DNA from: Liolophura sinensis
Taxonomy: Eukaryota; Mollusca; Polyplacophora; Chitonida; Chitonidae
Assembly: GCF_032854445.1 (NCBI RefSeq)
Contig: NC_088296.1
Coordinates: 10,512,706 to 10,576,705, forward strand
Direction of reading: 5' to 3'
Length of the DNA stretch: 64,000 bases
The notes below the pieces were generated by a model. It did no database searches and was not told the DNA's origin. It saw only the letters and a program-made list of their open reading frames with translations. Shown here piece after piece: positions 797 to 45,378 of the stretch. How positions within the stretch are numbered: position 1 is the stretch's first letter; every line of letters starts with the position of its first letter. Position numbers and translations under genes: made by a program.

Positions 797-1470
797 TTAA
801 ACTTTCTGCACCTTAAGTTCGTCATACTCACTACCATCTTGCTTATGATTGCTTGTCAGCTGTACGTGACTGTCCCCATTTTGTCGGACAGCGCTGTCTG
901 CTTTGTCATATGCTGTGTCGTTTCTATGTGGACTTCCGTATCCGGCCTGCCCTGGGTTGAATATTTTCTGGACTTTCATCGTTTGGTTTTAAGCCATACA
1001 GTGTGTTATAATTGTCCGGGATGTTGGTGGTGGCATGGGAAGGTTTTACGTGAGGTTTGGACAAAACATTGTATGTGGATTCGCTCTGGAAAGTTTCTGA
1101 GGCCTGGCTTTTCTCGGTAGCCAGCTTTTTTGCGTCTGCAATCTTGTGATTGGAATCCTTGTATCTATGACCCTCACTAGGTTTCTGATGGTCGAAACTT
1201 CCTGCTAAGTTATACAAACTCTGTGGGTCATGATTCATCTCTGCCTGTGGCGGCAGGTCAACTTCCTCGTAGCGGACGTCAGTGTTGGACGGGAGCTGCG
1301 TACTGGAACCCAACACATCCGGTAGTGCTGGGTATGTAGAATTAATAACTCCGCGTTGTTGTTGTACAGATTGATCAGTGACATTTTCTTGAGCTATGAC
1401 GTTAGAACGTTTTGCCTGCCTTTCTAACCCTATATCTTCTTTAACTTCTCCACTCGAACAATTTCTTGCC
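797..1470 (-). pseudogene. Gene A exon 5, cytoplasmic tail with 1-nt insertion
   Basis: The tail begins ARNCSSGEVKED after acceptor TTGCAG. It keeps VRYEEV and STYNVL. It has lost the first ITIM-like tyrosine (IAQENV against IAYENI in C), NPTY (now NSTY) and TTYSAV (now KADSAV). Plus-strand text near 950 reads CTGCCCTGGGTTG where C has CTGCCCGGGCTG, an extra base that shifts the frame. The expected downstream frame is still open from about 979 to the stop at 797, which suggests a young lesion or a sequencing error. Confidence 0.8.
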
Positions 1471-1980: not shown

Positions 1981-2104
1981 CTGAAAATAACAACAACAGC
2001 TAGAACGACCACGGCCAGAAGAACCACTCCGCCTATACCTACTGCCAGACCGATCGTCAAGGCTGAGGAACTCACGACTGTAGATGCAGCTGGGGCTGTA
2101 ATGA
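1981..2104 (-). CDS. Gene A exon 4, stalk and transmembrane helix
   Basis: A 124-nt exon entering in phase 1 and leaving in phase 2. A short Ala/Ser/Thr stalk precedes a membrane helix of about 26 residues beginning [14 protein letters not shown] and ending VVVIFR. The core helix is nearly identical in A, B and C. The acceptor is CGTTCCAG and the donor GTAAGATA. Confidence 0.85.
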
Positions 2105-2292
2105 CTGGAACGTAGTAAACAACAACATGATGATGGGGTGAGGACAATAGCATTCGAAACCTGATTGGCATCCACATACTATTCTTATCTTATATATTTC
2201 ATTAGGGTACTCAGGGCTATTTTAATATTTTGTATGAACCGACGACAGATTTATGCATGGGAGGAATCATTCACAGATCAGACAAAATCCCC

Positions 2293-3352: not shown

Positions 3353-3439
3353 ATTCTCAAGTCGCTCATCATATTGCTTTCGTAAGTACGTAAGTTCAGC
3401 TTGAACATTTGGTTATGACCTGCTCCTTGTTGAATAATA

Positions 3440-5054: not shown

Positions 5055-5186
5055 CGAGACATTGCCCTGTAGATGACCGTCTTGCGCCGATGGAACAATC
5101 ACACGCTTTTACCCGTGTATTATTAACACGCCTCACGCTGCATGTGGTGTTGGCAAGACAATTGTGCCCATCAGACCCACAGTTTC
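5055..5186 (-). CDS. Gene A exon 3, EGF-like domain 2
   Basis: A 132-nt exon, phase 1 to 1, with six cysteines and the end signature C-D-C-S-x-G-x-R. That signature is shared with the EGF2 exons of B (CDCSAGSER) and C (CLCSAGAQR). The acceptor is GATGAACAG and the donor GTGAGTAT. Confidence 0.85.
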
Positions 5187-5431: not shown

Positions 5432-5563
5432 GCAAACAAAACTTGTCAGGGATTCCTTGTTGTGTGAATGGACCATACCATCCGTCCTGACACTCACAGT
5501 GCTTTCCCTCCACACATGACGTCCTATATCCGCATTTCTCTTCACACATATCCGCTGTAACGC
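5432..5563 (-). CDS. Gene A exon 2, EGF-like domain 1
   Basis: A 132-nt exon, phase 1 to 1, with six cysteines in EGF spacing (C-x3-C-x5-C-x5-C-x-C-x15-C). The acceptor is CCCAACAG and the donor GTAAGTTA. It corresponds in position to 21174-21305 in gene B and 38573-38704 in gene C. Confidence 0.85.
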
Positions 5564-11284: not shown

Positions 11285-11287
11285 CTA

Positions 11288-12893: not shown

Positions 12894-12972
12894 CAGAAAT
12901 ACATGTGACCGTCAAAATGACCAGTGTAATCAGAATTCGTGTCCAGCGTCTTGGAAGCCTCAGAGATTCCAT
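12894..12972 (-). CDS. Gene A exon 1, signal peptide
   Basis: ATG at 12972 opens MESLRLPRRWTR followed by a hydrophobic run (ILITLVILTVTC), a typical signal peptide. The donor GTGAG follows 12894, leaving phase 1. The start is supported by paralogues B and C, which begin in the same way and share a GACAGC(A/G)(G/A)ACA-type leader immediately before ATG. Confidence 0.85.
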
Positions 12973-16928: not shown

Positions 16929-17628
16929 TTAAACTTTCTGGACTTTTAGTTCATCATATTCCCCACCATCTTGTTGTTCATTGTTTGACTGTTGTACGAA
17001 ATCGTCTTTACTTTGTCTGACAGCGCTGAACGCTGTATCATACTCGACGTAATCGTTCCCATGAGGATATCCGTATCCGGTCTCTCCGGGATGAAGGTTG
17101 TTTGAACTTTCATTGATCGGTTTTAAGTTCATGTCATAAAGAGTGCTATAATTGTCTGGGGTGTTGGTGGCAGCGGAAATGGTGGGTTTTACAGTAGGTT
17201 TAGATAAAACACTGTATGTAGAATCACTCGGGTAAGTCTCTGGAAGGTTGTTTTTCTCCACACCGAGCTGTACTGCTTCAGCATCATTAGTCTTCTTGTC
17301 CCAGTACACGTCTTTGTACTCATTATTGTCACTAGGTTTCAGTGTCTCGAAATTTCCTGCCATGCTATACAAATGGAGTGAATCATTATTGAGCTCTCCT
17401 TGTGGCGGCAAGTCCACTTCCTCGTAGCTTACGTCAGTGCGGGATCGGATCTGCGTACTGGAAGCTAACACATCCGGTAGTACTGAGGACACTGGGAACG
17501 ATGGATTGGCAAGTCGACTTTGTTGTACTGCGCCGTCTTCGTAAGCGTGCCTTGTGATTTCAGAACGGTTTTCATGTGCTTCTAAAGGTATATCTTTTAT
17601 ACCATCACATCTTGCACGATTTCTTGTC
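16929..17628 (-). CDS. Gene B exon 5, cytoplasmic tail
   Basis: The acceptor CTTGCAG leads into TRNRARCDGIKD and an open frame to the stop at 16929. Tyrosine motifs seen: VSYEEV, STYSVL, NYSTLY, VEYDTA and the terminal EYDELKV. The LPDVL and YEEVDLPPQ blocks are shared by all three paralogues. Confidence 0.88.
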
Positions 17629-20600
17629 CTGCAAGTCAAAATATTTATGGTACTATGTCAGTTTTGATTGGATATGTCAACTAGGAATATCTGCAAATGG
17701 TAACTTTCACCTAAATGACGGATGAAACGTTCAAAGCTAAAAAAAAAACATTCATATATGCTCTCAACTGATATTTCAGCGTAATACTCAAAATAAAAAA
17801 TATAAAAATACAACCTATTACAAAACGATTGCAAGCGCAGGGCATCTCTATGAGTGAACATTGATTGGTTCTCTCAGGCATTACATCCAGTTAAACGTCT
17901 TTGAATGTGCTTCTGCATATTTGGTTACAAGATAATTATACTCATAGTAAAACTGAAGGAACTTAGAGTGAGTGACACACTAGTTTTTGCGGTCATATCT
18001 TGTGGCGTTGATTGAAATCATCACGTAACTCACATATTCAAAGAAATGTTACAAGACAATATATGTACACGCCATATGCAGGACCCGCTGGTATATTACT
18101 GTCCATATAAGGATAGTTTACAATGTTATGCCACACCCTGTTGCTTTACGGTCGGTAACAATATATTCGTTTCTTTGCGTGGAAGGCGACTCAGTTGTGC
18201 GCTTTTTAAACACCAACTGCTTTGCACTTACATTGGCAATCACATTGCTTACCTGAAACCAACAACTACAGATAAGAGGACCACAGACAGAAGAACCACT
18301 CCACCTATACCTACGGCCAGACCGATTACCAGCGCTGAGGAATCCTTGGCTGTATCTGTAGATGGGGATTCAGCTGGAGTTGTAGTAGTAGTTGTAGCCG
18401 TAGCTGGGGGTGTAGCGAATGAGTGAAGCTACAATTGAGGAGTTTTGAGTCGGAACTCTTTTGTTGTCAAAGGTAAAAACAGTCCAACTGTATCATTTGA
18501 TTTGTGAAAAATGTTAAACAACCTTTGTTGACATTAATTTACTAATAACTTGTCTCGAACTTTTCCAGAAGCACAAGTCACACGTCTTTCCTCACATACG
18601 TTCAGATTCTCAATTTTCGTCTAATCTAAATTTCTTGTTGTGAAGATTTCTTCAAACGGCCATGTTATAGTGATTGTGATCAAAAATAGTAGCCTAACAT
18701 TTCTGACAGGTATTATGATACAGTTGCACTTTTTCTACCTTCATCGATGAAAGAGTTCGAAATCAAAACACCCCTATTAAAAATGAAAATAAGGTAAACC
18801 ATGAAAGACAACAGCAGAGTACACGATCATCATGGTGGTGTTAAGAAGTATAAGACTACTACAGTATTCAAACTCTGCATCTAATTAATCGGGGGTACTC
18901 GAGAATATTGAAACAGCTTTGTATGTGGATAGAACATGTTTATCAATGAATGGAACCAGACACACAACCAAGTTTAAGGCTGCTGACATGTGCTCAATTC
19001 GAACCTGCGGGCTCGCTCGCCAAGTGCGTTGATCAGTTGCCAGCGAGACTTAAGTTAGAACTAGTGTCAAACAAGAGAGAAATAGTCAACAAAGTCCTGC
19101 GTCTGCTGTATAACAAACTGACTAATAAATTCTGATAACTTAGTTCACCAACAAAGAAAACATGCATGAGATGCAGAATGCTGAGATGTAGTAAGACACT
19201 TGAGCTTTCAAGGGCATTGGTGACCGACTGCTAAAACACTTTAATTATTTTGTAAATATAACTGTGAAATTTCTTCGTCGTCGTCTTCCTGTTGTCGGTT
19301 GTTGCGATGAGAGGACCCTCTGAAAAACACAAGCTTTCCATCACCGTGTACAGAGCTCCCCTGTATTCTCTCATACATTCTTACACTGAATGCACCCCAC
19401 CTCTCTATCCTCTCTCTGCCTATATCGCTCCTCACAGGCGCATGTGTAGTCCGCCTCCCCCCCCCCCCTCCAACCGTGTTTGTACAAAGTGTTGTTCCGA
19501 CACGTCTGGATTTGCGGCACACTCGCCGATATTTGAATGACCTTAAGCGGAACTATGATTCAGTACATTTAGATTCACATACATCCTTAAATTCATCTTG
19601 CTTCCTTGAGAAAATGACGTCATGCTTGAATTTTCAGATCATTTTACAAATATTTAGAAAATAGCTAGTATCCAATATCACCAAGACAAAACTAATATTT
19701 GATTACAACAGACGCATATACAGGAAAATACCAAAGCCCGCTGCGGACGTACGAAATATAAAGACAGCTTAGAAAGTAAAACCAAAGCAATGTGATGGTA
19801 AACAAATGGTCACACGTAACTGGTGAATCCGGCTTCTTGGAGGATTGGCAGTTAAAACAAATATTTGTTTCTCACAGACGTATAAGCACAAACACCAAAG
19901 CCCCGTGCGAAAGTGTGAAATATAAAGACAGCTTAAAGCGCAAAACCAAAGAACTGACAACAATATGACGGGTACCAAATTGTCACAGGTAACCGATGAA
20001 ATCCCGCATCTTGTTAGTTTACCTCAGTTTGGGGTTTTGTTTGTGTCTATGTGATTACACGAAAGGTATTAACTTGTACGTGTCATTTCACTATGGCTTT
20101 AGCAAGATTAGGTAATACAATTACGGTGATGGTTAATTGCAGTGTATTTGTCCTAACTGTCCTAAACTTAATACATACATAATGTGAATAATCTCTCACC
20201 TACACATTCTCCTGTAGATGATGATCGTTCTGACCCGGCTGAACAGTCACACACTTTTACGTCTTTATTCTTGTAAAGAATCGTTCTACATTTGGTGGTG
20301 ACAGAGCACATCTCCCCTTTAGTCTGACAGATCTCTGTTTTATAACAAAAGTTTTAAATACATTTCCAAGGAACATAAGCCTACGTTATTGTATTTGTCG
20401 CATGGAGGTAAACTGTCCTCAATACAACCCGCGATGATTTCACAAAAGATGCTGCCAGTGGTCCAGTGTGAGTTCAAGTCCAGTCTATGCTGGCTTCCTC
20501 CCCAGGAATCTCTGCCACCAACCCGCAGATGCTTGTCGGTTTCTCTCCGGTTTACTCTCACCATAATACGTGTAATACCCTTCACTGAGGCACATACTAA

Positions 20601-21651
20601 TCAACTAGTTCAACATACGTTTTTAAGTTAGATCTACATACAAACTAAACTCCCAATCAGGTCTCTTTGTGGATATCATTATTATAAATTCAACAGCGTT
20701 TTCCGTTTTTAAACAGTTTTGTGGATACCAGTCTGTGTTCTATATAGTTAGATGAAGACAAATCGCCGTGTTAGGCACTAGAACAGATTCTAATTTTTTT
20801 GGTGATTTCCCGGCTCTCACTAAGCATGCATGGGTGACGAAGTCTAACGTTCACTGAAGAATAATTGTTTTCCCCCAATATAGTGTGCATGCCTGTACGT
20901 CACATGTGAAAACGTTCCTCGATAACCTGCTAAATGCCCGTGTTTTAAACTCCGGTTTCCTCCACAGCCATTAAACTGATCGACATCGTACAGGAGAAAA
21001 ATTCTTCACTATGGCGTAAAGCAACAATCAAATAAACATTTAAATCTGACCTGATACGGTATTTATTTACGAAACACATGTTTTGGTTATTACTTACGGA
21101 GCACATATTCTGGTGTTTACTTACGAAACATGTGGTGTTTACTTATGAAACACACGTTGTGGTGTTAACTCACGGAAGCAAAAGGCAACAGAGTTTCCGG
21201 TTGCGGCTTGAAGAGAAGTGAATCCCTCTGTACAGTTACAATACCTCCCATTCACACATGACGTTCCATGTCCGCAATTCCCGCCACATTCATAAGTGTT
21301 AAGACCTATGGGAGAGATTGTTTTTCATTGTAGAATTATAACTCGAGATAACCCGACAAAAATAAAGAAAAAATCCGGAAGGAAATTTATGCTGTATTTT
21401 ACGTTATTCTCAAACTACAGGTGACAATAGCGATTGGTTGACGATTGAAACATTATCAACTGACACATAAATTGACGAATTTATGTGTAAATCGGCCGTT
21501 GTCTAGTATCAAGAAATACACATTAAATCATTGACAAATCTGTTCCTCTAGTCTTAGCTCTAGCACGCTGTAACTCACCTGTGATACATATGGCCGCCAG
21601 AATGACCAGTGAAATCAAAACCTGTTCCCTTCTCTGTCTCTGCCATTTCAT
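16929..21651 (-). CDS. Gene B: EGF-domain type I membrane receptor
   Basis: Five intact exons on the minus strand: 21579-21651 (signal), 21174-21305 (EGF1), 20200-20334 (EGF2), 18253-18403 (Thr/Pro stalk and membrane helix), 16929-17628 (tail). The joined CDS is 1191 nt, giving 396 residues. It is the most compact paralogue. The stalk is longer than in A and C (151-nt exon) and rich in Thr, Ser and Pro, probably O-glycosylated. The tail keeps VSYEEV, STYSVL and the terminal YDELKVQKV. NPxY has become NPSF, and the ITSM-like tyrosine is Phe (DTAFSAV). A dead cbEGF exon lies in the intron at 19385-19532; skipping it leaves the frame intact. Predicted surface receptor; ligand unknown. Confidence 0.85.
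18253..18403 (-). CDS. Gene B exon 4, Thr/Pro stalk and transmembrane helix
   Basis: A 151-nt exon, phase 1 in and phase 2 out. The stalk begins ATATTTTTPAESPST, 27 nt more stalk than A or C, and is followed by the conserved helix [14 protein letters not shown]. The donor GTAAGCAA follows GGTTTCAG. Confidence 0.82.
18430..19240. other. Gene B intron between dead cbEGF and membrane exon
   Basis: No exon or repeat recognised. The frame at 18950-19135 plus is unsupported. Confidence 0.5.
19385..19532 (-). pseudogene. Decayed calcium-binding EGF exon in gene B
   Basis: Aligned to the cbEGF exons of gene C, the acceptor AG has become AA (TTCAAATATCGG against CAG-ATATTGAT) and the calcium-binding DIDEC has become NIGEC. 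There is a frameshift in the middle, and a run of 12 G on this strand sits where C has a single GTNGGCAAC. The remnant is 148 nt instead of 135, so inclusion would break the frame. The donor GTAAG is still good. It lies between the EGF2 and membrane exons, exactly where C carries its four cbEGF exons. Confidence 0.8.
19740..20165 (+). mobile_element. Two family B repeats in tandem
   Basis: AAATATAAAGACAGCTTA occurs at 19755 and again at 19918, each followed by an AAAACCAAAG block. The second continues to the GATGGTTAATTGCAG end. Confidence 0.65.
20200..20334 (-). CDS. Gene B exon 3, EGF-like domain 2
   Basis: A 135-nt phase 1-1 exon with six cysteines; the closing part reads CDCSAGSERSS. The acceptor is ATAAAACAG and the donor GTGAGAGA. 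Confidence 0.85.
20458..20580 (+). mobile_element. tRNA-SINE body
   Basis: GTGAGTTCAAGTCCAGTC to CTCTCACCATAATACG, inside gene B intron 2. Confidence 0.7.
21174..21305 (-). CDS. Gene B exon 2, EGF-like domain 1
   Basis: A 132-nt phase 1-1 exon with six cysteines (pattern starting CGGNCGHGTSC). The acceptor is CCCATAG and the donor GTGAGTTA. Confidence 0.85.
21579..21651 (-). CDS. Gene B exon 1, signal peptide
   Basis: ATG at 21651 starts a basic N-terminus (MKWQRQRREQ) followed by the hydrophobic core VLISLVILAAIC. The donor GTGAGTTA comes after 21579, phase 1. The leader just upstream matches those of A and C. Confidence 0.85.
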
Positions 21652-24956: not shown

Positions 24957-25360
24957 TTGACAAGAGGGTCATTTCACCGGTTACCCGTGACCATTTGCCA
25001 AATGTCACACCGTCGTCGCTGCTCTGGTTTTACTCTCTATGATGTAGCCGCATTTCACCGGTTACCCGTGACCATTTGCCAGATGTCACACCGTCGTCGC
25101 GGCTCTGCTTTTTACTCTCTATTCTGTAGCCGCATTTCACCGGTTACCCGTGACCATTTGCCAGATGTCACACCGTCGTCACAGCTCTGGTTTTTACTCT
25201 CTATGCTGTAGCCGCATTTCACCGGTTACCCGTGACCATTTGCCAGATGTCACACCGTCGTCACTGCTGTGGTTTTACTCTCTATGCTGTAGCCGCATTT
25301 CACCGGTTACCCGTGGCTATTTGCCAGATGTCACACTGTCGTCGCTGCTCTGGTTTAATG
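24957..25360 (-). repeat. Five-copy 81-82 bp satellite derived from family B
   Basis: ACCGGTTACCCGTGACCATT starts at 24976, 25057, 25139, 25221 and (as ACCCGTGGCTATT) 25302. The unit is the reverse complement of the inner part of the dispersed family B repeat, so one element expanded in place. Confidence 0.9.
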
Positions 25361-26314: not shown

Positions 26315-27110
26315 ACGGACATATACGCTGTATACAAACAATACAAGAATACATATAGAAATAAACAATGACTTTGTTACATTACACTGTATATAGACAA
26401 TACAAGAATACATATAGAAATAAAACAATAACTTTGTTACATGACACTGTATATAGACAACACAAGAATACGTATAGAAGAAAACAATGACTTTGTTACA
26501 TTACACTGTATATAGACAACACAAAAATACATATAGCAATAAAACAATGACTGTTACATGACACTGTATATAGACAACACAAGAATACGTATAGAAATAA
26601 ATCAGTAACTTTGTTACATAACACTGCATGTAGACAACACAAGAATACATACAGAAATAAAACAATAACTTTGTTACATGACATTGTATATAGACAACAC
26701 AAGAATACGTATAGAAATAAAACAATAACTTTGTTACATGACACTGTATATAGACAACACAATAATACATACAGAAATAAAACAATGACTTTGTTACATG
26801 ACACTGTATATAGACAACACAAGAATACATATAGAAATAAAACAATAACTTTATTACATGACACTGTATATAGACAATACAAGAATACATACAGAAATAA
26901 AACAATGACTCTGTTACATAACACTGTATGTAGACAATACAAGAATACATATACAAAGAAAACAATAACTTTGTTACATGACACTGTATATAGACAACAC
27001 AAGAATACATACAGAAATAAAACAATGACTTTGTTACATGACACTGTATATAGACAACACAAGAATACATATAGAAATAAATCAATAACTTTGTTACATG
27101 TATATATATA
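26315..27110. repeat. 60-bp minisatellite, about 13 units
   Basis: The unit contains CAAGAATACATATAGAAATA then TTTGTTACATGACACTG. The period is 60 bp almost throughout, with one 3-bp deletion near 26550. Because 60 is divisible by three, long frames stay open on both strands; they are not genes. A (TA)n tract closes it at 27100. Confidence 0.95.
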
Positions 27111-27955
27111 TATATACATAGTCTTACCACGATATATAAACGTTCTGATGTGATCTAAACTGCCAGGTGTACTCAGTAATCGTCAATGGTGTAATATTAA
27201 TCAATTTTACATAGACTTTTGAATAACCGGCTTATGGCGCGAAACACCAGGAAAAAATCTACTTCAGATATATCCCGCTCCTGGTGTTAAAACTTACAGA
27301 AATGAGCCCATCCGATTCCACTTAGGCCATTTGCCGAGGTGACTGAGCGGCCCGCTTACGCTTACGTGACATAATCAACATACATTACGACATGTATAAA
27401 CATACATTCAAGTTTACAATAGAAACGAAATTTATCTACAAATGCACAATAAGTGATTTTAAGTACGGTACGCAAGTTATATATGCCAAGTAATCAAAAC
27501 ACTTAGTTAAAGAAAACGTGTTGTTATCATACCGATTAATCCCACATAAATTTATCGTTGAACTTTATTAAGTCGTGAGTATATTGAATAAAGTTGTGAT
27601 GTACAGGTACAGCTGAATATATCTTACTGGAATTTACTTACGGAGGCCACATTTATGCAGTTATACTACAATTTGGACAAAGAAATATCTCATATTTAAA
27701 GCAAACACATAAACATATGAAATACATATTCGTAAATAAATGACAAAAATTAATATAACAAAAAGTTTACAAAAATTTAAAACATTTAGAAATGGAAATC
27801 TTTTTGAATACATATATGTAAAATAATAATAACAATAACAGACCAACTGAACTTTTTAACATTTTCACATTTTTATAGAATTTTTATTTACATCATTCTG
27901 ATGTCATAAGCTGAACACAGTCAGTAAAATTTGTCTTGTTTGGTCGTGACACAAC
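27110..27955. other. Intergenic, strongly AT-rich
   Basis: No gene. A weak tRNA-like patch (GAGGTGACTGAGCGGCC near 27340) is probably an old SINE head. Confidence 0.4.
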
Positions 27956-29521: not shown

Positions 29522-30206
29522 CTAAACTTTCTGCATCTTAATTTCATCATACTCATTACCATTTTGCTGTTCATTGCTTGTCAGCTGTACGCCATTGTCC
29601 CCAATTTGTCTGACAGCGCTGTATGTTGTGTCATATTGGACGTCATCGTTTCTATGTGGATTTCCGTCTCCGGCCTGCCCGGGCTGAATATTTTCTAGAC
29701 TTTCATCGTTTGGTTTTAAACCATACAGTGTGTTATAATTGTCCTCGGTGTTGGTGGTTGCAGTGGTAGGTTTTACGTGAGGTTTGGACAAAACATTGTA
29801 CGTGGATTCGCTCGGGGAAATTTTGGAAGCCTGGCTTTTCCCCGTAGTCAGCTGCTTGGCTTTGTTGTCTGCAATCTTGTGATTCGAGTACAGATACTTG
29901 TATTCACTCTCACTAGACTTCTGATCGGCGAAATTTCCTGCTAAGCTATACAAACTCTGTGGATCATTATTCAATTCTGCCTGTGGCGGTAGGTCAACTT
30001 CCTCGTAGCGGACGTCAGTGCCGGATGGCAACTGTGTACTGGAACCCAACACATCCGGTAGTGCTGGGTATGTTGGATTAGCAACCCCGCGCTGTTGTTG
30101 TACAGATTGATCAGTGATGTTTTCGTAAGCTATGACGTCAGAACGTTTCCTCTGCTTTTCTAACACTATATCTTCTCTAACACCTCCGCTCGAACGATTT
30201 CTTGCC
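29522..30206 (-). CDS. Gene C exon 9, cytoplasmic tail
   Basis: A 685-nt terminal exon after acceptor ATGCAG, with stop at 29522. It encodes residues 332-559 and has the fullest set of tyrosine motifs among the paralogues. Confidence 0.9.
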
Positions 30207-33200
30207 CTGCATTTTAAAAATTATACACATTAGTTTCGTTAATTATTTAATTTCTCAAGGAATATTTACAAATAGAAACGCCACGCTTGAAATGTCTGAT
30301 ATAGGGTAAAACAAAAAACTGTTCTGACGACAATATTTTTATATACTACTCTCGCTTTTCAACTGATTGACTGACTAAATATGAAAACTAAACAATCAAA
30401 ATATTACAAATGATTGTTACAAACAATTGTAACTAATCAGGTGAAAGTATTTATATAGACCCTCCCAGAGTACAATGTCCAGATGGCCGTCATGTTGCCC
30501 TTGTTTTACCATTTTGTTATATAAAACATTGGTTACGAGTGATTCAACATCGTTTTTCCAGTTACACCAATATGATATGGTGTATTTACTGACCATTTCC
30601 AGATTAATAGCATATCAGAACAAAAAAACTGTAGACCTATCTCCCAAAATAGCTAAGGTTATAATATTTCTCGACATTTTTTTTAAGTGCCACAACTCGA
30701 TGATGTTTTGAGACGAATCACATCTGAGGGAATTCCACAATGTCAAAATGTTAAACCTCGTCACAATGCTCAGCTTTTGGTAGTGGTAGTTACAATTTTG
30801 GTATCATTGTCTTCGATTATATTCATGAGGTAACTAAAATGTTGATCTATAAGGCTCAAAAATAAGTATCTCAAGTTCTGATTTCATAAAAGGCTGCTGT
30901 TGGGCACAATCCCATTGGTTACCTGAAAATAACAACAATGGCTAGGACCACAACGACCAGAAGAACCACTCCGCCTATACCTACTGCCAGACCGATCGTC
31001 AACGCTGAGGAATCCGCGGCTGTAGATGCAGCTGCGGCAGTTACAACTGAAGCGTAGTCAACAACAACAACTCAGTATATGAGCTTTTTGATGATTTTTT
31101 AACACAGTAGCGTTAATCCACATCCTAGTATTACGTTATATATTTTATTAAGAAACTTTGGACTACTTTAATAGCCCATAAAACGGGGAATGTTCAGATT
31201 TATGGATGGAAGGAATCAGACGCAGGACGAACAGAAATCACCGCACTTCGTCAGGTCAGTGACCGACTGGTTGCCATGAGAGAGATTTATTCGAATAAAT
31301 GGGTAGAGAATTCTCCGCTTAAACCAAAAACAAAGTCAAAAGAAAATCTTGAAGCCATTGCTCTATTTGATGCATGAAACATATTCAGTAGTTGAAATCA
31401 GGCCAACATGCAAATGTTCGCTTCCTTGGGTTAACCCTTATCAGTATAATGGCTCAGGCGGGGCGGCTTACTTGCCTTCGGTAAGTCGTCTCAGTGAAGC
31501 AGCACTAAATAAAAGAGCGGTGGAAATCAGTCCTGCAAGAAGGAGGCACATTACACGTACATGCATCCTAAGGATTCCTTCGTCGTCATATGACTGAAAA
31601 ATTGTTGAGTACGACGTTAAACCCCAAGCACTCTCTCACTCATTCACTCCTTGGGTTAAACTCCAAACTGGGACAAACACTTCCTGGTGCCCTGATTTGA
31701 GGTCGAAACGCACATTTGCTTGTCGTTCTGCATTTACTTACTTTTACTGCACCCCAACTCTTCACCCTCTTTCGCCTTGTATCCCTCCGCACACGCACAC
31801 GTGTAGTTGCCCTCGGTATTTGCACAAACAGAGTTGTTGCCGCATGTGTTTGGATTTTCGGTACACTCATCAATATCTATATGGCACGTTTAAAATATAT
31901 TTTTGGAATATATATATATGAGTGCAGAAATGATGGAATAAAAAAATCTTTCTTCAGTAAAATTCAAATGGTGCAATAGTTTGTTTTTCATTTCCGCTTT
32001 CTTGCAAGCAGAGCCATTATAGTATAAAATATACATGACAATCAACAGAAGAGAGGTTGTAAATTGAAATATAGATATACAGTTAAATGCACTAGTGGCA
32101 TATAATGTTTTGTTCTATGGCTAAAGTCGCCAAAATATTCAGAGGCGGCGCTGATACCATGTGGTTGCTGAGGTAAATTGACAAAAGGCCGTATTTCACC
32201 GCTTACGTGTGGACATTCAACAGCTATCAAACCTTCGTCGCTGTTCTGGTTTTACCCTCTATGCTTGACGTCTACATTACATTCCTTGTTTATGTGCATG
32301 TAATCGACTCAGTGTAGTCACCAGAATAATTACAGTGTAACGGAACTGAGATCAAGTTTTCGGCATGATGCAACACCGTAATCATGACGACATTGTATGA
32401 ATAAATGGCTGATTATGGTCTAACACCACATTGTACTGTGCGTGTGGACAGGTCTACGGACAGCCGCCTGAATCTGTCCTTTCTTCCGCTGGTACTTTAT
32501 TCTTCCTTACCCAGATTGCATCCCACGTCTTCACCCCCTTTCTGTCTATACCCCTCCGCACACGAGCACGTGTAGTTGGCCACCGTATTTACACAAACAG
32601 AGTTGTTACCACATATGGTTTGATTTTCGGTACACTCGTCAATATCTGCAGGACACACGTGAATCAGAAGCTTTAATAACAACTGCACTTTTACACTTGT
32701 GCCTTACATGGTGTTCATTTTTCGTTTGTTGCAAGCATACCTAACAACTATGATCTCTGCACCTTTATCAACAAAGTCAGTAAACAGAAAAGAATATGTA
32801 AATTTCAGAATAATTATAAATTCATTTTATCAACTGTATATAATATGTTGTTCGAGATCCAAGGCTGCGGAACTATTTAGAGACGGTGGTGATACCACGT
32901 GACTTCATTGTTAATGTAACCCTATCAATGGAGTCACCACAGTCATTTACACTAACTGATTTGGGATCAAGTCTTTGCCATAATAATTTAGTGAGGCAGC
33001 GCCATAAGCATTTCGACACATTGGATGATTAAATGGATAACGGATTAGGATCTAACACCACATTGTATTGTCGATGTGGACAGATCTTTGGACAGCCGCA
33101 TAAATCTGCCCTTTCTCCCTTGGTATCTTATATTTGCTTACCCACATTGCATCCCACATCTTCACCCTCCCTCTGCCTGTATCCCTCCGCACACGCGCAC

Positions 33201-36200
33201 GTGTAGTTGCCCACCGTGTTTACACAAACTGAGTTGTTACCACATATGCCGGGATTGTCAGTACACTCATCAATATCTGTATGAAAACATAAGCATACAT
33301 GACAAATGCACTGTTACATGTAACCTGCCTATTTCTACAGTAGAACATGAGGACTCCAATGCTTTATATGTTGTTCATTATTCGTTTGTTGGGAAAATAC
33401 CCGCCAAACTATGAAATCTGCATCGTTTTTTCTCAACAAAATCAGTAAACAGAAAATATGTAAATTTCAAAACAATTAAAAATTAATTTGACCATCAGTA
33501 TATAATATTTTGTCCTATGCCTAAGGTTGCGGGACAATCTACAGGGCCGTGGTGATACCATGTGGCTTCCTGTCTAATGTGATCCTATCAATGGAGTCAC
33601 CACAATCATTACACTGTGACTGAGATGGGATCAAGTCTTCGGCATGGTGCTTTAGTGAGGCCGCACAATAAATATGATGACACATTAGTTGATTAAAAGG
33701 ATGACTGGTTAGGAACAAACGCCAGCATTGTATCATAGGTGTGGACAGATCTTCGGAAAACCGCCTGTATTTACCCCGTTTTTCTGCCTGTGTTTACATT
33801 TACTTACCCATATTGCACCCCACCTGTTCACCCTCTCTTTGCCTGTATCCCTCCGCACATGTGCACCTGTAGTTGCCCACCGTGTTTTCACAAACGGCGT
33901 TGTTGCCACATCGCTCTGGCTTGTTGGCACATTCGTCGATGTCTTGTTAGGACATTTCAAGCATAAGCGAGATATGATTAACTACAAGAACATGGCACAT
34001 CTGTGACATGCAGCCAATATACTCTTCAAATGGGGTCAACAGAGTACTGGTTTCAAAGCTACCTTTCTAATCGAGGCCAAGATGTCCTTTATAATTACCT
34101 ATTTTTTTGTACAATCTCCCATTAAATATGGTGTGCCATGGGTTATATTTTAGCGCCAAAGATTGATTTGATTCACGTTTCACGCCGTTATTTCAATGTT
34201 AAAAAGTGTTTTGCCCTATTGGACTTATTGTCCTCTTTGTTGATGATATCATCTTTCCCCATTCGCCGGGAAATATCAACGAAACCATAAATACTATGAC
34301 ACATGAACTTACAAAATTGGAAGATTGGTTATATGGAATTAAACTCTCATTAAATATAGGTAAAACAAAAGTAATGATTGTAAAAACCGTCTTGAAAGGG
34401 TTTCCATCCGATATTTCCAACATGTTTACGGGGAAATAATTAAAGTAGATTTTGTCGTAATCTGCCTTTGCATTATTTTGAATGGTAAACTTCGCTGGGG
34501 GTCTCACATAAATCAGACATGTAGGAAAGTATCTAGAAATATCCGGCATTCAACATATTAAACAAAGTGTTAATAAAAACACACTTTATACTTTATGATT
34601 CTATGACATTTTCACATGTATCATATGATATATTTTTATGAAACAATTTATTTTTAATACAATTTCGGGTTTCGCTTGAGTGGTCAGCCTACTATAGTGC
34701 AGAGCAATATCCCTCGAGCCTGCATGTATCACAAATATTTTTTTTAAATAGTGTGTAGAGCTTGGGTCGTTACGTGTCACTGGCTGAAGGCAATTTTGAC
34801 AACGAATATGACTTTCCAGATAGCTGAATATACTCTACTCGTTAAAAGAAATAGAATATAGTTCAATTCATGCTGACTTCCTCTCCGATCTGACGTGGGA
34901 AGGTCTTCCAGCCACCTGTGCATGGCCATATTGTTGGCGGCCGTCGAGTGAGTGCGGCGATGTTAAACATCAATCAAATGAACAAATAAATATTAAATAT
35001 ACACACAGACAACCGCTATTTCTTTTCCAAATATGGGCTATTTCTCTGTCTTTCAGTTTAAACATACTGCTCTCTTATTCATGGAACTACAAATTTATAA
35101 CAATTTCAGGTTAAATCAATTTGCTAGTGTCGTCCAGGCCCATACATTAATTCATCATGCGGAACAACACCCTCTACATCCGTCGGCTATTTTATCTGTG
35201 AGCGTTGACAAGAAGAGAAGATTAAATTTACCAAAAGTAGAAGTATATAAGTAAATACTGAGACATGAAAATGGGGATGAATGTCACAGGGCTGGGGTTT
35301 ATCACCGTACTTAAGAATATTTGACATTATATACGACGGCGACCAGCATTATAGTGGAAGAAATCAGGGACCGCCCTGGGGAAACCCACGACCATCCGCT
35401 GGTTACTGTCAAACCTTCCCACATGCTTCTTTTGGAAACATTTTACACGGTAATTTGATACATACAATTACCCGACTAGAACTTTAAACTACAATCTTTA
35501 TAAACCAATTTATCGCTCGACACCGTTCCACGACTGAACCATGGCCTTGCTACAAATATCTAACGAACATACAGAAGTAATACCGCGCCAGCTACAGGTG
35601 TAAACCTGATTCGAGCCAGTGGCCTTAGTGGGAGAGCCAGCGCGGTACCCTGAGAATCAAAGCTTATGACTGATGTAAAGTATTACTCACCCAGACACTG
35701 TCCTTTAGCAGACCTTTGTGCTCCAGCTGAGCAAAGACACACGTGTCCCAATAAGGTATATTTACACGCGGTGTTGACAGGACACGCGCCCCATGTAGTC
35801 CCACATCTTTCTGTTTTACGACAAAAAATGTTCAATACATTTTCGCGCAAACAGGAACCAGTTACATAAAGTTGTATTGGCCACCGCAGAAAGGTATGAT
35901 GATTTCACATTATGATTGCATCTATACGCCCATAACGATGTCTTTCGTTTTTCAAAAGATTGTAAAGACATTTGCAATATCGTTGCTGTGTACCTTATTC
36001 TTTATAATCTGGGCGAGAGCTATCCATCATGTAAAGTAGTTACACAGACGTAAACTAGGATTTACTGTTAACGTACGCAGAAAAACATTACCGGTGGCAA
36101 ATTTTCACAGGCACAATAGAGTGTGGATGTGTGCATGAGGGTACAAAACGTACACATTTGCTTTTCTAGGAGAAGCAGCATTACTATATTATAGATACAC

Positions 36201-39200
36201 TGTTAAATTTGTGTGTGACCGTCACTCACGAAGACAAAACTGAAGCGTGTCGGTTGTATCGACCATTCCCTCTACATCCGTCAGCAATTTTATCTGAGAG
36301 TTGACAGTAAGAGAACATCAAATTTACCAAAAGTAGAAGTATATAAGTAAATATTAAGAAGACATGAAAGCAAACTAAATTTTATTCCGTGTTCTAGGGT
36401 TAAAAGCATTTGATGACTCCATGGACACATTTCGTAGATGATGTAAGTCAAGCAATGATTTATTGGATAGCAATTTTACTCCGAGTTTATACGATTATAT
36501 CAGAGTGGTGTGTGTGCCTTATACGTCCTTCTATTTTGTCAAGATGATCGATATTTTGACGAGCTCACTTTTATTGAATTAATATCGGCCCTGCGACCTG
36601 CAGACTGCCTTTTCACAGACGTTTTGCCGTTGTGCTGAAGATATACGACACGTCTCAGATGGGCAGTTAGATATTTTCGACTCAGTTTGCAATTTAATAG
36701 TCTTAAAAATGTTAAAAACATTTTTACCACACGTTGTTGATGTTAACTGTTTTATAAAAAAAGAAGGGATGGCATTGTTATTGACGCCCACATTCTCCAC
36801 AATCATCTTGCCCCAATTATCGTCCAACACATCCGTGACTCCGTAGGTATATACAAAAAATAACCAACGGGTGAGGCTGTATTACCTGGCTGTTTGGTAA
36901 ATATCACAGTTTATCCAATGCGGACTGACCAGTCAGAAGCAAAGCATTTCTTCGGTAGTAATAATTAAATTTTACTTTGTCAGGTTTATGAGTAAAAAGC
37001 AATACCATCTCCCTTCACCAAGTGCTTGGCAACTCTCCTGACTAATTGACCTCTTGTCAGTTTATCCCAATTAGGGTTTCATTCTAACTGTTCATAAAAA
37101 TGTTTAAAAAGTAGCAATTAGCACCATGGCTTAAGCAGAATTAGGTAACAAAAACGCAATGATCTTTACTGAAATATTTTAGACGTCACTGGTCTAGAAT
37201 TACTCAAATGCTCTGCTGTCATTACATTTAATATATAACTTGTGGCGGCATCACAAATAGTACCATTTCTAAAGTCATTGGTATGAACCGACCAATGATT
37301 GGTACCGTATCCAATGAGGGGAAGAGGAACTTACATGAGGCTGTGCATGCAAAAAAAACGCATTATTTCAGGGGCCAAATTCCAACTCTGGGCAGTATAG
37401 AAATATTGTTGCATTATCCACAAATATGATAAGTATGAATGTTTTAATCATACAACACATTGGTTTAATCATTTAGTCGCTTTCATATTGAGGAAACACC
37501 CACCCACTCTCCTGTATTTCGCGATCTCTCTTTAAATGAACACTAGCACAACCGTTTAAATATCAGTACACCCTTTACGTGCCGCAGAACGAACTACGGT
37601 GTGTACAGTTTTCTAGCAGGTCACGTGTCAGAACTTACTCCTTACTTTTGATTATTTATTTATTTGATTGGTGTTTCACGTCGTACTCAAGAATTTTTCA
37701 CTTATACAACGGCGACCAGCATTTTTGTGCGAGGAAAACGGACTGGGCCCAGGTGAACCGTGGCTTTGCAACTACAACAAAGGTGAGAGTTTAAAACAAC
37801 AAACAGATTTTGAGATATATATGGCAAGAGAGATAACAGGCCATGTGACAGTGCTCATTATGCATGGCTAGCGCCACTTGCAACATTTCTTCCAATGGTC
37901 ACACTGTGATAGAAAAATATAGTCTACAGTGCGTGAACCTGATTTTCTCATGGCCGGAAATATCTGCTATCTGGGTTGTTAAATTGTGACGAACGTGTTT
38001 TCACATTACATTTGTTATTATATCTATTATTCACAATATTAAGTCTTGTGATAAATTAGAAACAAATTTAAATACAGGTAGCATTTATTTATGTGATAAC
38101 GGCGGTCAGAATTTTTGCCTGAGGAAACCGCGTATATTCTGAGACACACCCATGACCATCTGCAGGTTGTTGGCAGACCTTCTCATGTACGACCGTGAAC
38201 ACCATGAGCTGAACTTGAAAACACGTGCAGGACCTAAATTACCTTCGTATTAGAATAACATGAAAGTTACACGTATTTCAGAGTATTAAAGACAAATTCT
38301 TGAACTTTGTGTTTTTAAAATGTAGCAAGCAGAACTGTATGAATGCTGAAGTTTTCTATGGGATTGGCTTCGACATAGATTTGAGAAGAACTAAAAAATC
38401 CAAGCTGACTCCTTTACTGACAGCTTTTTACACAAAAGTTTTTGCAAGTAATCAATGCACACACGTATAATTTTTCTTCAAACAAAACTTTAAAATCGTT
38501 GAGTAAATATACTGCATTAGATGCAATTTTAATTATGTGTAAGAATTATATCTGCTTATGCTGAGAACTTACTTGAGCAAAATGGCACATTACTTCCAGG
38601 TACAGGCCTTAAACCAGCATATCCTGGTTTGCAACGACAACCACTCTGCCCACATGATATCCCATGTCCACATGTTGTCCAGCCGCAGTTCATAGCTTCC
38701 ATACCTATGATATGCATAAGGGAAATCAAATCAAAGCGACAAATCACACAAGCTAAACAAGTGCTAAGAACAAATATTTACTTAAATAAGTAATAAAACC
38801 TATAATACAATTACTATTTCATTATTATCATTGAACAAGGCTGAAAAACACTTTCCAACACGTGGGCATGTGGTTTGCTAAATTATGTTAGCTGGGGAAA
38901 ATTGACAAGAAGCCGTGTTTGACCGATTGCGTATGACCATTTGCCAACTATCACACTCGTCGCTGCTCTTGATTTACTCTCTATGGTGTACTTTTATGGT
39001 GGTCTTTTGTAGTATTACATGACATATAGTTTGGTGTATTCCAGTTTTTTTCTGTACTGTGATTCGGACTGTGACACAGTGTAAAACTAAATTTAGGGAT
39101 TTGAAGCTAAGTATTTTCAATGGCCTGTAAATTGAAAGCTATAACCACTTTGTAAAGTTTGTAAAGTCTGCACCAAACGGTAGCCCCAGATATGTTCATT

Positions 39201-45200: not shown

Positions 45201-45378
45201 CGTTAAGGTCGACAAAGGCGAAAATACACTGTATACAACTGAGGAAATCTGTTTCACCTGCCCTGGCTCTAACACGGTTACACTGCAGGTATAACTTACC
45301 TGGGACACATATCGATGTCAGAATGACCAGCGGAATCAGAATCTGTCCCCAGCGTTTTGTGGGCGTCTGAGATTCCAT
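29522..45378 (-). CDS. Gene C: EGF/cbEGF receptor with tyrosine-rich tail
   Basis: Nine exons on the minus strand: 45300-45378 signal, 38573-38704 EGF1, 35691-35810 EGF2, four 135-nt cbEGF exons (33808-33942, 33142-33276, 32511-32645, 31742-31876), 30923-31046 stalk and helix, 29522-30206 tail. The joined CDS is exactly 1680 nt, giving 559 residues. Domains: 27-70 EGF1, 71-110 EGF2, 111-290 four cbEGF, about 306-331 membrane helix, 332-559 tail. Tail motifs: IAYENI (Y359), NPTY (Y378), VRYEEV (Y399), STYNVL (Y468), YNTLYGL (Y489/Y493), TTYSAV (Y527) and terminal YDEI (Y551). Several fit ITIM or ITSM consensus and one is a PTB-type NPxY. Known from the family: CED-1/Draper/MEGF10 engulfment receptors use NPxY plus YxxL. 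Inferred: phagocytic or immune surface receptor. This is the most complete of the three paralogues. Confidence 0.88.
30923..31046 (-). CDS. Gene C exon 8, stalk and transmembrane helix
   Basis: A 124-nt exon, phase 1 in and phase 2 out. An Ala/Thr stalk precedes a helix starting [14 protein letters not shown]. The acceptor is CGCTTCAG and the donor GTAACCAA, a weaker donor than in A because +4 and +5 are AC. Confidence 0.85.
31480..31650 (+). mobile_element. SINE-like family C, copy 2
   Basis: It ends TTGTTGAGTACGACGTTAAAC then CACTCTCTCACTCATTCAC. It lies between the gene C cbEGF4 and membrane exons. Confidence 0.65.
31742..31876 (-). CDS. Gene C exon 7, cbEGF domain 4
   Basis: A 135-nt phase 1-1 exon starting [15 protein letters not shown], six cysteines, ending ELGCSK. 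The acceptor is CCATATAG and the donor GTAAGTAA. It is the membrane-proximal cbEGF. Confidence 0.87.
32165..32290 (-). mobile_element. Family B insertion inside a duplicated exon unit
   Basis: GAGGTAAATTGACAAAAGG to TTTTACCCTCTATGCTTGACG. Its presence explains why the cbEGF3-cbEGF4 spacing (769 bp) exceeds the other two (631 and 666 bp). Confidence 0.7.
32511..32645 (-). CDS. Gene C exon 6, cbEGF domain 3
   Basis: A 135-nt phase 1-1 exon starting [15 protein letters not shown], six cysteines, ending EDVGCNLG. The acceptor is GTCCTGCAG and the donor GTAAGGAA. Confidence 0.88.
33142..33276 (-). CDS. Gene C exon 5, cbEGF domain 2
   Basis: A 135-nt phase 1-1 exon starting [15 protein letters not shown], six cysteines, ending EDVGCNVG. 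The acceptor is TTCATACAG and the donor GTAAGCAA. Confidence 0.88.
33808..33942 (-). CDS. Gene C exon 4, cbEGF domain 1
   Basis: A 135-nt phase 1-1 exon starting [15 protein letters not shown], with the [12 protein letters not shown] hydroxylation-type pattern (C-x-N-x4-Y-x-C-x-C). The acceptor is CTAACAAG and the donor GTAAGTAA. Confidence 0.88.
34040..34620 (+). pseudogene. LINE reverse transcriptase fragment
   Basis: Frames in order give [11 protein letters not shown] (34055), a YGVPWV block equivalent to GVPQGS, FVDDIIF (catalytic, near 34237), [20 protein letters not shown] and a KVSRNI segment with TLYTL. This is the usual order of non-LTR (CR1/Jockey-like) reverse transcriptases. Frameshifts and stops make it inactive. 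It sits in the gene C intron before cbEGF1. Confidence 0.7.
34748..34850 (+). repeat. Dispersed repeat, copy 1
   Basis: GTGTAGAGCTTGGGTCGTTAC to GATAGCTGAATATACTC; matches 44046-44140. Confidence 0.6.
34867..34990 (+). mobile_element. tRNA-SINE body and tail
   Basis: CATGCTGACTTCCTCTCCG to AACATCAATCAAATGAAC. Confidence 0.7.
35160..35270 (-). repeat. Duplicate of the remnant-exon flank
   Basis: It shares CCTCTACATCCGTC and the run TTTACCAAAAGTAGAAGTAT with 36265-36370, about 1.1 kb away. It contains only the intron-like part and the first bases of the decayed exon. Confidence 0.6.
35300..35425 (-). mobile_element. tRNA-SINE body
   Basis: CCGTACTTAAGAATATTTG to GGTTACTGTCAAACCTTCCC. Confidence 0.7.
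35691..35810 (-). CDS. Gene C exon 3, EGF-like domain 2
   Basis: A 120-nt phase 1-1 exon, the shortest EGF2 of the three genes, with six cysteines and the signature [11 protein letters not shown]. The acceptor is TAAAACAG and the donor GTGAGTAA. Confidence 0.83.
36230..36370 (-). pseudogene. Remnant of an extra EGF exon in gene C
   Basis: Bases 36230-36266 match the end of an EGF1-type exon (a D-T-L-Q-F-C-L ending and donor GTGAGTGA). Upstream the cysteine pattern is lost. An AG acceptor (CAACTCTCAG) would give a 64-nt exon that breaks frame. The segment 36266-36370 recurs at 35160-35270, so exon and intron pieces were duplicated and decayed. It is left out of the gene C model. Confidence 0.5.
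36380..37025. other. Gene C intron, no feature seen
   Basis: Frames at 36539-36830 minus are short and unsupported. Confidence 0.45.
37030..37210 (+). mobile_element. Family B repeat, 3' part
   Basis: CTCTTGTCAGTTTATCCC to TTTTAGACGTCACTGG. Confidence 0.6.
37652..37760 (-). mobile_element. tRNA-SINE tail half
   Basis: TTTATTTATTTGATTGGTGTTTC to a GGACTGGGCCC end. Confidence 0.7.
38080..38225 (-). mobile_element. Diverged tRNA-SINE
   Basis: GATAACGGCGGTCAGAATTTTTG, GACCATCTGCAGGTTG and CATGAGCTGAACTTG in order. Confidence 0.6.
38573..38704 (-). CDS. Gene C exon 2, EGF-like domain 1
   Basis: A 132-nt phase 1-1 exon with six cysteines; the middle reads [14 protein letters not shown]. The acceptor is ATCATAG and the donor GTAAGTTC. 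Confidence 0.83.
38885..39000 (-). mobile_element. Family B fragment
   Basis: AAAATTGACAAGAAGCCG through CGTCGCTGCTC to ACTCTCTATGGTGTAC. Confidence 0.6.
39285..39352 (-). mobile_element. tRNA-SINE tail fragment
   Basis: ATTTGATTGGTGTTTTACGCC to CCAACATTATAGTG; it abuts a family B copy. Confidence 0.7.
39360..39560 (+). mobile_element. Family B repeat, 3' two-thirds
   Basis: It begins directly after a SINE fragment. CTCTTGTCAGTTTACC, CACGCCTCCTGGCACCATGG and AATTAGACATC are in order. Confidence 0.65.
39677..39893 (+). mobile_element. tRNA-SINE with A box, B box deleted
   Basis: GGGGCCTCCGTGGCTCATTTGG (A-box-like) joins TCCAGCTCATGTTAGC, skipping the B box. The tail is complete. Confidence 0.8.
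40119..40410 (+). pseudogene. Penelope-like RT fragment 1
   Basis: It encodes the [12 protein letters not shown] block, a damaged MGTNC segment and [13 protein letters not shown], where the two aspartates are kept. Adjacent at 40410 is a family B repeat. Confidence 0.65.
40410..40570 (+). mobile_element. Family B repeat joined to Penelope fragment 1
   Basis: AATTAAGGCGTACAGCATAG starts right after the RT text. It ends at the poly-C run. Confidence 0.65.
40598..40755 (+). pseudogene. Penelope-like RT fragment 2 (duplicate)
   Basis: A near copy of 40248-40410, including GCAAATTGTTC, the tyrosine-rich stretch and the DDLLAL block, and again followed by a family B repeat. The ATT of IDD has become AGT. 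Confidence 0.65.
40763..40845 (+). mobile_element. Family B repeat joined to Penelope fragment 2
   Basis: AATTAAGACGTACAGCATAG to GGAAACCGG: the same junction as at 40410. Confidence 0.65.
40880..41110 (+). mobile_element. Penelope-like 3' tail fragment
   Basis: AATCAAACCGCAACTGAGATAC and GTGTTAAACGTCGTTTTG resemble 52090-52330, downstream of the large element. Non-coding. Confidence 0.4.
41272..41286. repeat. Poly-C run
   Basis: Fifteen C in a row; a similar run of 11 lies at 40570-40580. Confidence 0.95.
41375..41480 (+). mobile_element. Second Penelope-like 3' tail fragment
   Basis: TATGAACAGTTAGTATCAACGC and the GACTTCGAATTTGACTT area match the order seen at 52080-52160. Confidence 0.35.
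41960..42680. repeat. 31-34 bp minisatellite in gene C intron 1
   Basis: About 20 units of GATATCTTTACCCTATGATA followed by CAGTGTCTTTATT, increasingly degenerate toward both ends. Confidence 0.9.
42720..42840 (-). mobile_element. Family B fragment
   Basis: GAGGTAAACTGACGAGAG to TTTTACTTTCTGTTGTAG, with a small internal duplication of GTCGTCACT. Confidence 0.65.
42890..42990 (+). pseudogene. Penelope-like RT C-terminal fragment
   Basis: CAAGGATACTCCATCAAACG and GAGTATAACACTCTGGTTGG match 51635-51705 in the large element (protein GYSIK then EYNTLVG). Confidence 0.55.
43013..43098. repeat. 29-bp repeat, three units
   Basis: The unit is TTGTATTCAAATGGAAATTAT with small changes. It directly follows the Penelope-like fragment at 42890. 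Confidence 0.8.
43210..43470 (+). mobile_element. Family B repeat, nearly full length
   Basis: AGACTATGGCATAGAGAG, then ACATAACCGGTGAAATACGG, then TGTTCATGTAAATGC, then the 3' end. It lies just before the MITE at 43569. Confidence 0.65.
43569..43949. mobile_element. MITE with 18-bp terminal inverted repeats
   Basis: The left end TTGCCTCGGGTGACGTCA (43569-43586) and right end TGACTTCGCCCGAGGCAA (43932-43949) are inverted with 16 of 18 matches. The 381-bp interior has no coding potential. A second copy lies at 63586 onward, interior inverted. Confidence 0.75.
44046..44140 (+). repeat. Dispersed repeat, copy 2
   Basis: GTGTAGAGTTTGTGTTGTTAC to GAGAGCTGAATATAGGC; same orientation as copy 1. Confidence 0.6.
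44665..44805 (-). mobile_element. Family B fragment
   Basis: TATTTAAGCATTTACATAAAC to GCTTTGGTTTTACACAG. Confidence 0.6.
44830..44960. repeat. Short version of the gene A intron repeat
   Basis: CAGCCTCAAACAAATCATGACTTC and CATCAGACAAGCCTT match units at 12220-12420. It has only two or three units. Confidence 0.6.
45300..45378 (-). CDS. Gene C exon 1, signal peptide
   Basis: ATG at 45378; the N-terminus [12 protein letters not shown] is followed by [12 protein letters not shown]. The donor GTAAGTTA lies after 45300, phase 1. It is similar in length and sequence to exon 1 of gene A. Confidence 0.85.

Follow-up and report, generated by a model that had tools for sequence, protein, structure and literature searches.

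The window analyzed here, a 64,000-nucleotide stretch of the Liolophura sinensis genome (C2:10512706-10576705, C2 being the contig that carries it), contains between positions 797 and 45378 three putative receptor genes, A, B, and C, arranged head-to-tail on the minus strand. In the joined gene models, each of the three comprises a signal exon, an N-terminal exon encoding six cysteines, an epidermal growth factor (EGF)-like exon also encoding six cysteines, a membrane exon, and a single tail exon. The introns of these models are GT-AG throughout and in phase 1, except for the membrane/tail intron, which is in phase 2. Consistent splice sites and phases thus bear out the three head-to-tail genes that an earlier note had proposed from the letters of this DNA. 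Its claim of a common exon plan holds for the five shared exons, but gene C has four extra calcium-binding EGF exons and gene B has one broken relic of such an exon (approximately 19533-19392); none was found in gene A. The exons are as follows, with the tails of A, B, and C designated type 1.

797..1470, minus strand: gene A type-1 tail exon with a frameshift against C
1981..2104, minus strand: gene A membrane exon (GLAVG, a GxxxG motif)
5055..5186, minus strand: gene A EGF-like exon 2 (six cysteines)
5432..5563, minus strand: gene A N-terminal six-cysteine exon
12894..12972, minus strand: gene A signal-peptide exon, judged from the sequence without a signal-peptide program
16929..17628, minus strand: gene B tail exon, type 1, complete
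18253..18403, minus strand: gene B membrane exon with a Thr-rich stalk
19392..19533, minus strand: gene B relic of a broken calcium-binding EGF exon
20200..20334, minus strand: gene B EGF-like exon 2
21174..21305, minus strand: gene B N-terminal six-cysteine exon
21579..21651, minus strand: gene B signal-peptide exon
29522..30206, minus strand: gene C tail exon, type 1, complete
30923..31046, minus strand: gene C membrane exon
31742..31876, minus strand: gene C calcium-binding EGF exon 4
32511..32645, minus strand: gene C calcium-binding EGF exon 3
33142..33276, minus strand: gene C calcium-binding EGF exon 2
33808..33942, minus strand: gene C calcium-binding EGF exon 1
35691..35810, minus strand: gene C EGF-like exon 2 (EGF2)
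36230..36293, minus strand: gene C possible relic of N_A', a second N-terminal exon type kept in paralogues (borders by eye; tblastn 7/10 amino acids, E 0.34 only)
38573..38704, minus strand: gene C N-terminal six-cysteine exon, N_C type
45300..45378, minus strand: gene C signal-peptide exon

The joined models of genes B (396 amino acids) and C (559 amino acids) are complete and free of internal stops. Gene A encodes 337 amino acids up to a frame change within its tail exon: relative to C, the frame shifts after ENIQP, the open frame stops near 924, and 955-800 is open in another frame. The shift can be genuine or an artefact of the assembly, for which 14x HiFi coverage has been published (PMC11068029). 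The ectodomains of A and B each consist of two small six-cysteine modules, and that of C of six EGF-type modules. In Pfam searches, C matched EGF_CA over four stretches (E 6.4e-32; 110 bits, cut-off 27), and at E ≤ 1 its matches were EGF-type families and one sub-cutoff match. The small six-cysteine modules went unrecognized by Pfam, with no match at E ≤ 1 for A and three weak sub-cutoff matches for B. The predicted structure of the second module of C (predicted local distance difference test score, pLDDT, 80.8) matched mainly EGF domains in the Protein Data Bank, with a best probability of 0.96 but an E of 0.35, and none of its 39 matches reached E ≤ 0.001. For the first, N-terminal module (pLDDT 75.4), no EGF domain was among the 15 weak matches listed; we call this module EGF-like because of its C-x-C spacing and its phase-1 exon. 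The membrane helices of A, B, and C all contain GxxxG, and no charged residue was seen in them.

The tails share the blocks LPDVL and YEEVDLPPQ, as claimed earlier for all three genes, and the C tail indeed contains NPTY, IAYENI, VRYEEV, STYNVL, and TTYSAV. The NPxY tail with sites fitting the immunoreceptor tyrosine-based inhibitory motif (ITIM) and switch motif (ITSM) that had been ascribed to the whole trio applies to C, but among the three NPxY, IAYENI, and TTYSAV occur in C only; their counterparts are NSTYP and IAQENV in A and NPSFP and TAFSAV in B. The C tail has four strict ITIM sites against 0.5 expected and six YxxL/I sites against 1.4 expected, values that none of 500 composition-preserving shuffles reached. 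Its single NPxY and single ITSM do not stand out, with 34 and 51 of the 500 shuffles, respectively, reaching them.

Searches of the genome (609,464,459 bases in 632 contigs) with tail, membrane, and ectodomain exons strongly supported the idea of a receptor cluster with phosphotyrosine-type tails and revealed it to be far larger than three genes. With the C tail as the query, 49 matches at E ≤ 0.01 resolved into 40 places, 36 of them on C2 and two each on C4 and C13. The C2 places comprise 20 at 9.9-10.6 Mb (the core), 11 at 7.5-8.6 Mb, and 5 at 13.0-14.6 Mb. These counts, like those for the second tail type given below, are rough, as pieces of one tail were merged by hand and the search scores only the best candidates. 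The ectodomain and membrane exons matched mostly the same regions, with further matches at 18.6-18.8 Mb of C2, and the calcium-binding EGF query also matched many unrelated places. A genome search for the EGF family placed none on C2 among the best 150 of 1421 candidates. We fetched 52 exon loci and located exons with a script that ranks GTRAGT donors first; 44 gave an open exon with at least five cysteines and a GTRAGT donor, and eight (L051, L052, L066, and L079-L083) were dropped because they had no exon by this rule. Of these 44 exons, 42 retain all six cysteines and two, L054 and L076, lack one each; the full set is also present throughout both alignments (24 and 17 picked sequences).

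To describe the type-1 tail, we aligned 20 examples. The core supplied 14, with A, B, and C among them, and other parts of C2 supplied six; two rows are the same protein, the rows of A and L006 stop where their frames break, and the other 20 of the 40 places are left out. Numbered by the C tail, Y136 is a tyrosine in all 20 tails, always within Yxx[LIV], Y157 in 19, always as YxxL, and Y161 in all 20. Y106 is kept in 18, Y67 (YEEV) in 17, and Y86 in 16 of the 20, and Y219 (YDEL-type) in 15 of the 16 tails with a letter there. The residues around Y136 fit an ITIM in 15 of the 20 tails. NPxY is present in 10 of the 20, and of the 15 tails with a residue aligned at the ITSM position, 11 fit that motif; a universal NPxY/ITSM tail was rejected on these counts. 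Because two YxxL tyrosines are kept in 20 and 19 of the 20 tails, respectively, the oldest tail core, as judged from the alignment, consists of two paired YxxL sites, the second flanked by Y161, and not of NPxY or ITSM. This core persists even where the match to the C tail is only 33-47%. Tails with an internally duplicated YNVL...YNTLY module were observed at L011-L014 (C2 10.39, 10.495, 10.01, and 10.25 Mb).

Five core membrane exons have no C-tail match behind them. Four of these (g10207, g10187, g10347, and g10438, named by position in kb) continue into a different tail exon, type 2, a second tail carried by sister genes outside the window. The type-2 splice, read from the sequence and not from transcripts, joins (C/T)AG, followed by GTGAGG, to GAGAAATATG, preceded by TTGTATTACAG, in the same phase 2 as type 1. 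The g10207 tail reads RRNMSST...PYENISEE...GIYTSAS...TIYTTLTQ...PYEAISEE...TLYTNLTQ. The type-2 tails of g10207 and g10187 are open to the stop, with six Yxx[LIV] sites against approximately 1.0 expected (0/500 shuffles). A search with the type-2 tail gave 21 matches at E ≤ 0.1, which resolved into 17 places. The core and the stretch at 7.8-8.4 Mb hold 7 each and the stretch at 13.6-13.8 Mb holds 3, those outside the core being open pieces counted without gene context. Both tail types were therefore matched in all three C2 regions. The fifth gene, g9931 (9.931 Mb), has an open chimeric tail that begins as type 1 (66.7% identity with B across 45 amino acids) and continues as type 2 (56% over 51 positions). 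Of the six core type-2 tails other than this chimera, two are open; two more are interrupted by a common stop after PP, and the last two by frameshifts.

Genes with different tails can have nearly the same ectodomain exons. At the DNA level, g10317 (type 1) and g10347 (type 2, interrupted) are 96.9% identical in N_C (219/226 aligned bases, 10 columns with a gap), 98.3% in N_A' (237/241, 20 columns), and 98.8% in EGF2 (159/161, no gap). The N_C regions of g10317 and g10207, whose type-2 tail is open, are 98.7% identical (227/230), and the membrane helices of genes with either tail are alike. We read the tails as exchangeable between genes because near-identical ectodomain exons occur with different tails and because g9931 has an open chimera. 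The similarity between the two tail types is not significant (BLASTP E ≥ 0.06 against C, B, and L011, g9931 apart; profile P 0.058). The sole profile match aligns YENI..IYTSA with YEEV..LYSLA, and a pattern written after seeing it, YE.[IV].{14}[ILM]Y..A, fits 13 of 20 type-1 and 5 of 7 type-2 sequences; a common origin of the two tails is therefore no more than a lead. One type-2-tail gene, L032 (C2 10187572), has an aspartate in its membrane helix (VGIDGVILL), unlike its listed relatives. Charged membrane-helix residues bind adaptors in vertebrate activating receptors.

The earlier note had also suggested a fast-changing ectodomain, and faster divergence was indeed found, but positive selection as such was not, and part of the effect reflects mixed exon history. 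The proportion of non-synonymous differences (pN) was higher in the N-terminal exon than in the tail in 10 of 11 gene pairs, the exception being A-L002. The ratio of non-synonymous to synonymous change (w, pooled Nei-Gojobori) was 0.43 over 14 rows of type-1 tails, among which row L009 is gene B. It was 0.86, 0.62, 0.55, and 0.62 in groups of N-terminal exons, with 2.08 in four very close genes, two of them identical, and 1.03, 0.59, and 0.44 in groups of EGF2 exons. Within exons, the loops C1-C2 and C3-C4 are the most variable. In N_A' their respective w values were 3.07 and 0.76. In N_C, the first loop had no synonymous change, which leaves w undefined, and the second gave 2.38; in EGF2, the values were 1.57 and 1.68. 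Loops C2-C3 and C5-C6 ranged over 0.36-0.84. A codon model of seven genes, in which the first model parameter was taken as w and the loops were selected on the same data, preferred w of approximately 2-3 over w = 1 in the C1-C2/C3-C4 loops (twice the log-likelihood difference 5.6; 7.0 with kappa) and gave approximately 0.5-0.7 elsewhere (5.9; 2.4 with kappa). Change is thus faster between the cysteines; positive selection is not demonstrated.

Comparisons between exons of the same genes indicate that their histories are mixed. L002 and L003 have nearly identical tails (proportion of synonymous differences, pS, 0.035) and divergent N-terminal and EGF2 exons (pS 0.233 and 0.305), and A is closer to L002 in the N-terminal exon (pS 0.098) than in the tail (0.239). 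The ectodomain and tail trees are discordant for A, L002, L003, and B, each marginally (approximately unbiased test, p 0.054 and 0.051). Both N-terminal exon types are present in eight genes, each open with good splice sites. Two intact signal exons were found in g10187, and the match lists suggest the same for other genes. The layout of g10207 includes a good signal exon, N_C, N_A', EGF2, and two clear calcium-binding EGF exons, together with a frameshifted one and an open one for which the scan gave no clear donor. A fixed pairing of each signal exon with one N-terminal exon type was considered and dropped, as on the match lists several genes keep N_A' with no first-type signal exon detected.

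Among known systems, SudRes1 of Biomphalaria sudanica, an MEGF/receptor protein tyrosine phosphatase cluster tied to parasite resistance (PMC12297450), is likewise a molluscan cluster of one-pass EGF-module receptors with variable ectodomains and copy number. Its receptors carry galactose-binding and intracellular phosphatase domains, neither of which gave a Pfam match in A, B, or C at E ≤ 1, whereas the chiton tail is a putative docking tail with no recognized enzyme domain. The families that pair ITIMs with immunoreceptor tyrosine-based activation motifs (ITAMs), namely natural killer-type receptors, Botryllus fuhc, and Hydractinia alr, resemble the chiton cluster in their clustered genes, tyrosine tails, and ITIM-fitting sites, with two tail kinds on like ectodomains in the chiton; allorecognition receptors have converged on ITIM/ITAM-type tails in Botryllus fuhc and Hydractinia alr (PMC12065747). 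Unlike them, the chiton genes have an EGF ectodomain instead of an immunoglobulin (Ig) or sushi one (no Ig or lectin domain matched A, B, or C in Pfam at E ≤ 1), no canonical ITAM, and no charged helix residue in A, B, or C. The best solved-structure sequence matches of the EGF modules of C are those of CD97/EMR (ADGRE) and NELL. The likeness is confined to the EGF module: the chiton genes have no seven-pass domain, and a tail of this kind is not known from those families. Nimrod proteins (NimC, Eater) are marked by the NIM repeat and a CCxGW motif; by eye, no CCxGW was seen in the joined A, B, and C proteins, and their cysteine spacing differs. The open-access literature searched gave no other case of a single large cluster that joins EGF-type ectodomains to two tail kinds; every ingredient is already known, and the combination is new as far as that literature goes.

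The layout read from the sequence is that of a signal peptide, variable six-cysteine modules, none to several calcium-binding EGF modules, one helix, and a single-exon tyrosine tail. We consider it fairly probable that these genes form an expanded family of phosphotyrosine-signaling type-I recognition receptors with two tail outputs, for which immune or phagocytic recognition would be the most likely use. In such a system, the distal variable modules would bind a changing ligand, and the receptors would cluster through helix and ligand. A Src-family kinase would then phosphorylate the YxxL, YE(E/N)(V/I), and YDEL sites, at which Src homology 2 proteins, either Syk/Shark-type kinases or SHP-type phosphatases, could dock. 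Where NPxY is present, a phosphotyrosine-binding-domain adaptor such as CED-6/GULP may dock as well. Two tail types on near-identical ectodomains would allow one ligand to give two outputs. A more elaborate version, which we put forward only tentatively, is an EGF-based paired-receptor system of this molluscan lineage's own, spread over several Mb, in which fast-evolving EGF-like recognition modules and alternative first exons were shuffled through duplication and recombination onto two ancient, distantly homologous tails sharing the core YE(E/N/D)(V/I)-x14-(I/L/M)Y-x2-A, with opposing or graded outputs from the same ligand.

Several observations weigh against the family of recognition receptors with two outputs. 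Adhesion, development, and gamete binding are also among the functions of EGF receptors. No canonical ITAM, Yxx[LI]x(6-12)Yxx[LI], occurs in any of the 20 type-1 tails or 7 type-2 sequences, and a canonical ITAM in either tail kind was rejected. In the best-matched pair, the type-2 gene (g10347) is one of the broken copies, and with only two of the six core type-2 tails open, type 2 may be undergoing decay here. The pS of the N-terminal exon also exceeds that of the tail in the same 10 of 11 pairs, and because of this, part of the contrast between N-terminal exon and tail reflects differing exon history; much of the ectodomain/tail contrast may be of this kind and not selection. The excess of w over 1, found in loops picked after inspection, was not repeated in a hold-out set of five groups of three genes and one pair, in which pN/pS was 0.99 in the loops and 0.56 in the remaining ectodomain codons, and tail w within close groups (0.46-0.58) is no lower than in several ectodomain groups (0.44-0.62). 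These last results, together with the several broken copies, would suit developmental or adhesion receptors undergoing neutral tandem expansion, with relaxed constraint behind the loop divergence. We regard this as unlikely, given the six cysteines kept in nearly every exon and the YxxL core kept in divergent tails. Ectodomain divergence with conserved tail tyrosines and tandem turnover would also be expected of gamete-recognition or allorecognition receptors whose changing EGF modules discriminate self or mates. Chitons are solitary, which leaves fusion allorecognition with no obvious role, and although allorecognition receptors do converge on such tails (PMC12065747), we give this account little weight.

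That the near-identical copies are unpurged haplotypes, and the cluster smaller than counted, strikes us as improbable. For two loci separated by 103 kb, identity reaches 98.4% over 3.28 kb, against a published heterozygosity of 1.24% (PMC11068029), and some near-identical copies may indeed be haplotypes. However, a comparison of the N-terminal exon between these two loci gives 6.0 non-synonymous and 1.0 synonymous changes over 43 codons, and the tails of A and B differ from that of C by 21% and 43%, respectively; A, B, and C stand whether or not such copies are haplotypes. We hold it very improbable that the genes are chiton-expanded members of the CED-1/Draper/MEGF10/PEAR1 engulfment family. 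The likeness to CED-1, Draper, and MEGF10 pointed out earlier lies in the tail motifs, namely YxxL sites and NPxY in some tails, C among them; half of the aligned tails lack NPxY. A type-I architecture with an EGF-type ectodomain and one membrane pass is common to both groups. The tails of those receptors are phosphorylated by Src-family kinases and then read or erased by Syk/Shark kinases or the phosphatase Corkscrew, and their NPxY binds CED-6/GULP (PMC8092387, PMC1762421). Draper places an ITAM isoform and an ITIM isoform on one receptor through splicing (PMC8092387), whereas the two chiton tail kinds come from different genes of one cluster. The likeness does not extend to the EMI domain, which had no Pfam match in A, B, or C at E ≤ 1 and whose only match reported in a genome search was on C10 and not C2, although an exon-split domain can escape such detection. 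Nor does it extend to a long EGF array, with two to six modules here against 17 EGF-type repeats in MEGF10 and 18 in CED-1 (PMC1762421); we rejected membership on these two grounds.

Cell-surface recognition in molluscs is poorly mapped, and a snail EGF-receptor cluster has already been linked to parasite resistance (PMC12297450). The main text of a five-genome chiton paper does not contain EGF, immun-, gene family, or expanded (PMC12005716), and immun- is likewise absent from the Liolophura genome paper (PMC11068029). If one ectodomain type is truly carried on two tyrosine tails, the cluster would be an EGF-based counterpart of the Ig, lectin, and sushi paired receptors, and another case of unrelated ectodomains reaching a phosphotyrosine switch. 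Its genes are clear candidates for work on chiton haemocytes.

Other features of the window were noted in passing. An Rfam search of its 64 kb gave no matches. By eye, open frames at 55525-57011 on the minus strand resemble a claudin/PMP22-like protein with four membrane passes (GVWMFCS), and short open frames at 40202-40414 and 50499-51614 on the plus strand resemble retroelement reverse transcriptase. Also by eye, a minisatellite with units of approximately 60 bases occupies 26228-27182 and is open in several frames, giving repeat artefacts in the list of open reading frames, and a second repeat array lies near 24950-25381. Elsewhere in the assembly, cox1 is open under the invertebrate code 5, and frames recognizable by eye as nad3, nad2, cox1, cox2, and atp6 come in that order, as in chitons and other molluscs. 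Contig C99 contains seven tandem copies of cox1, one of them partly matched, which gives the appearance of a mitochondrial circle assembled as a repeat.

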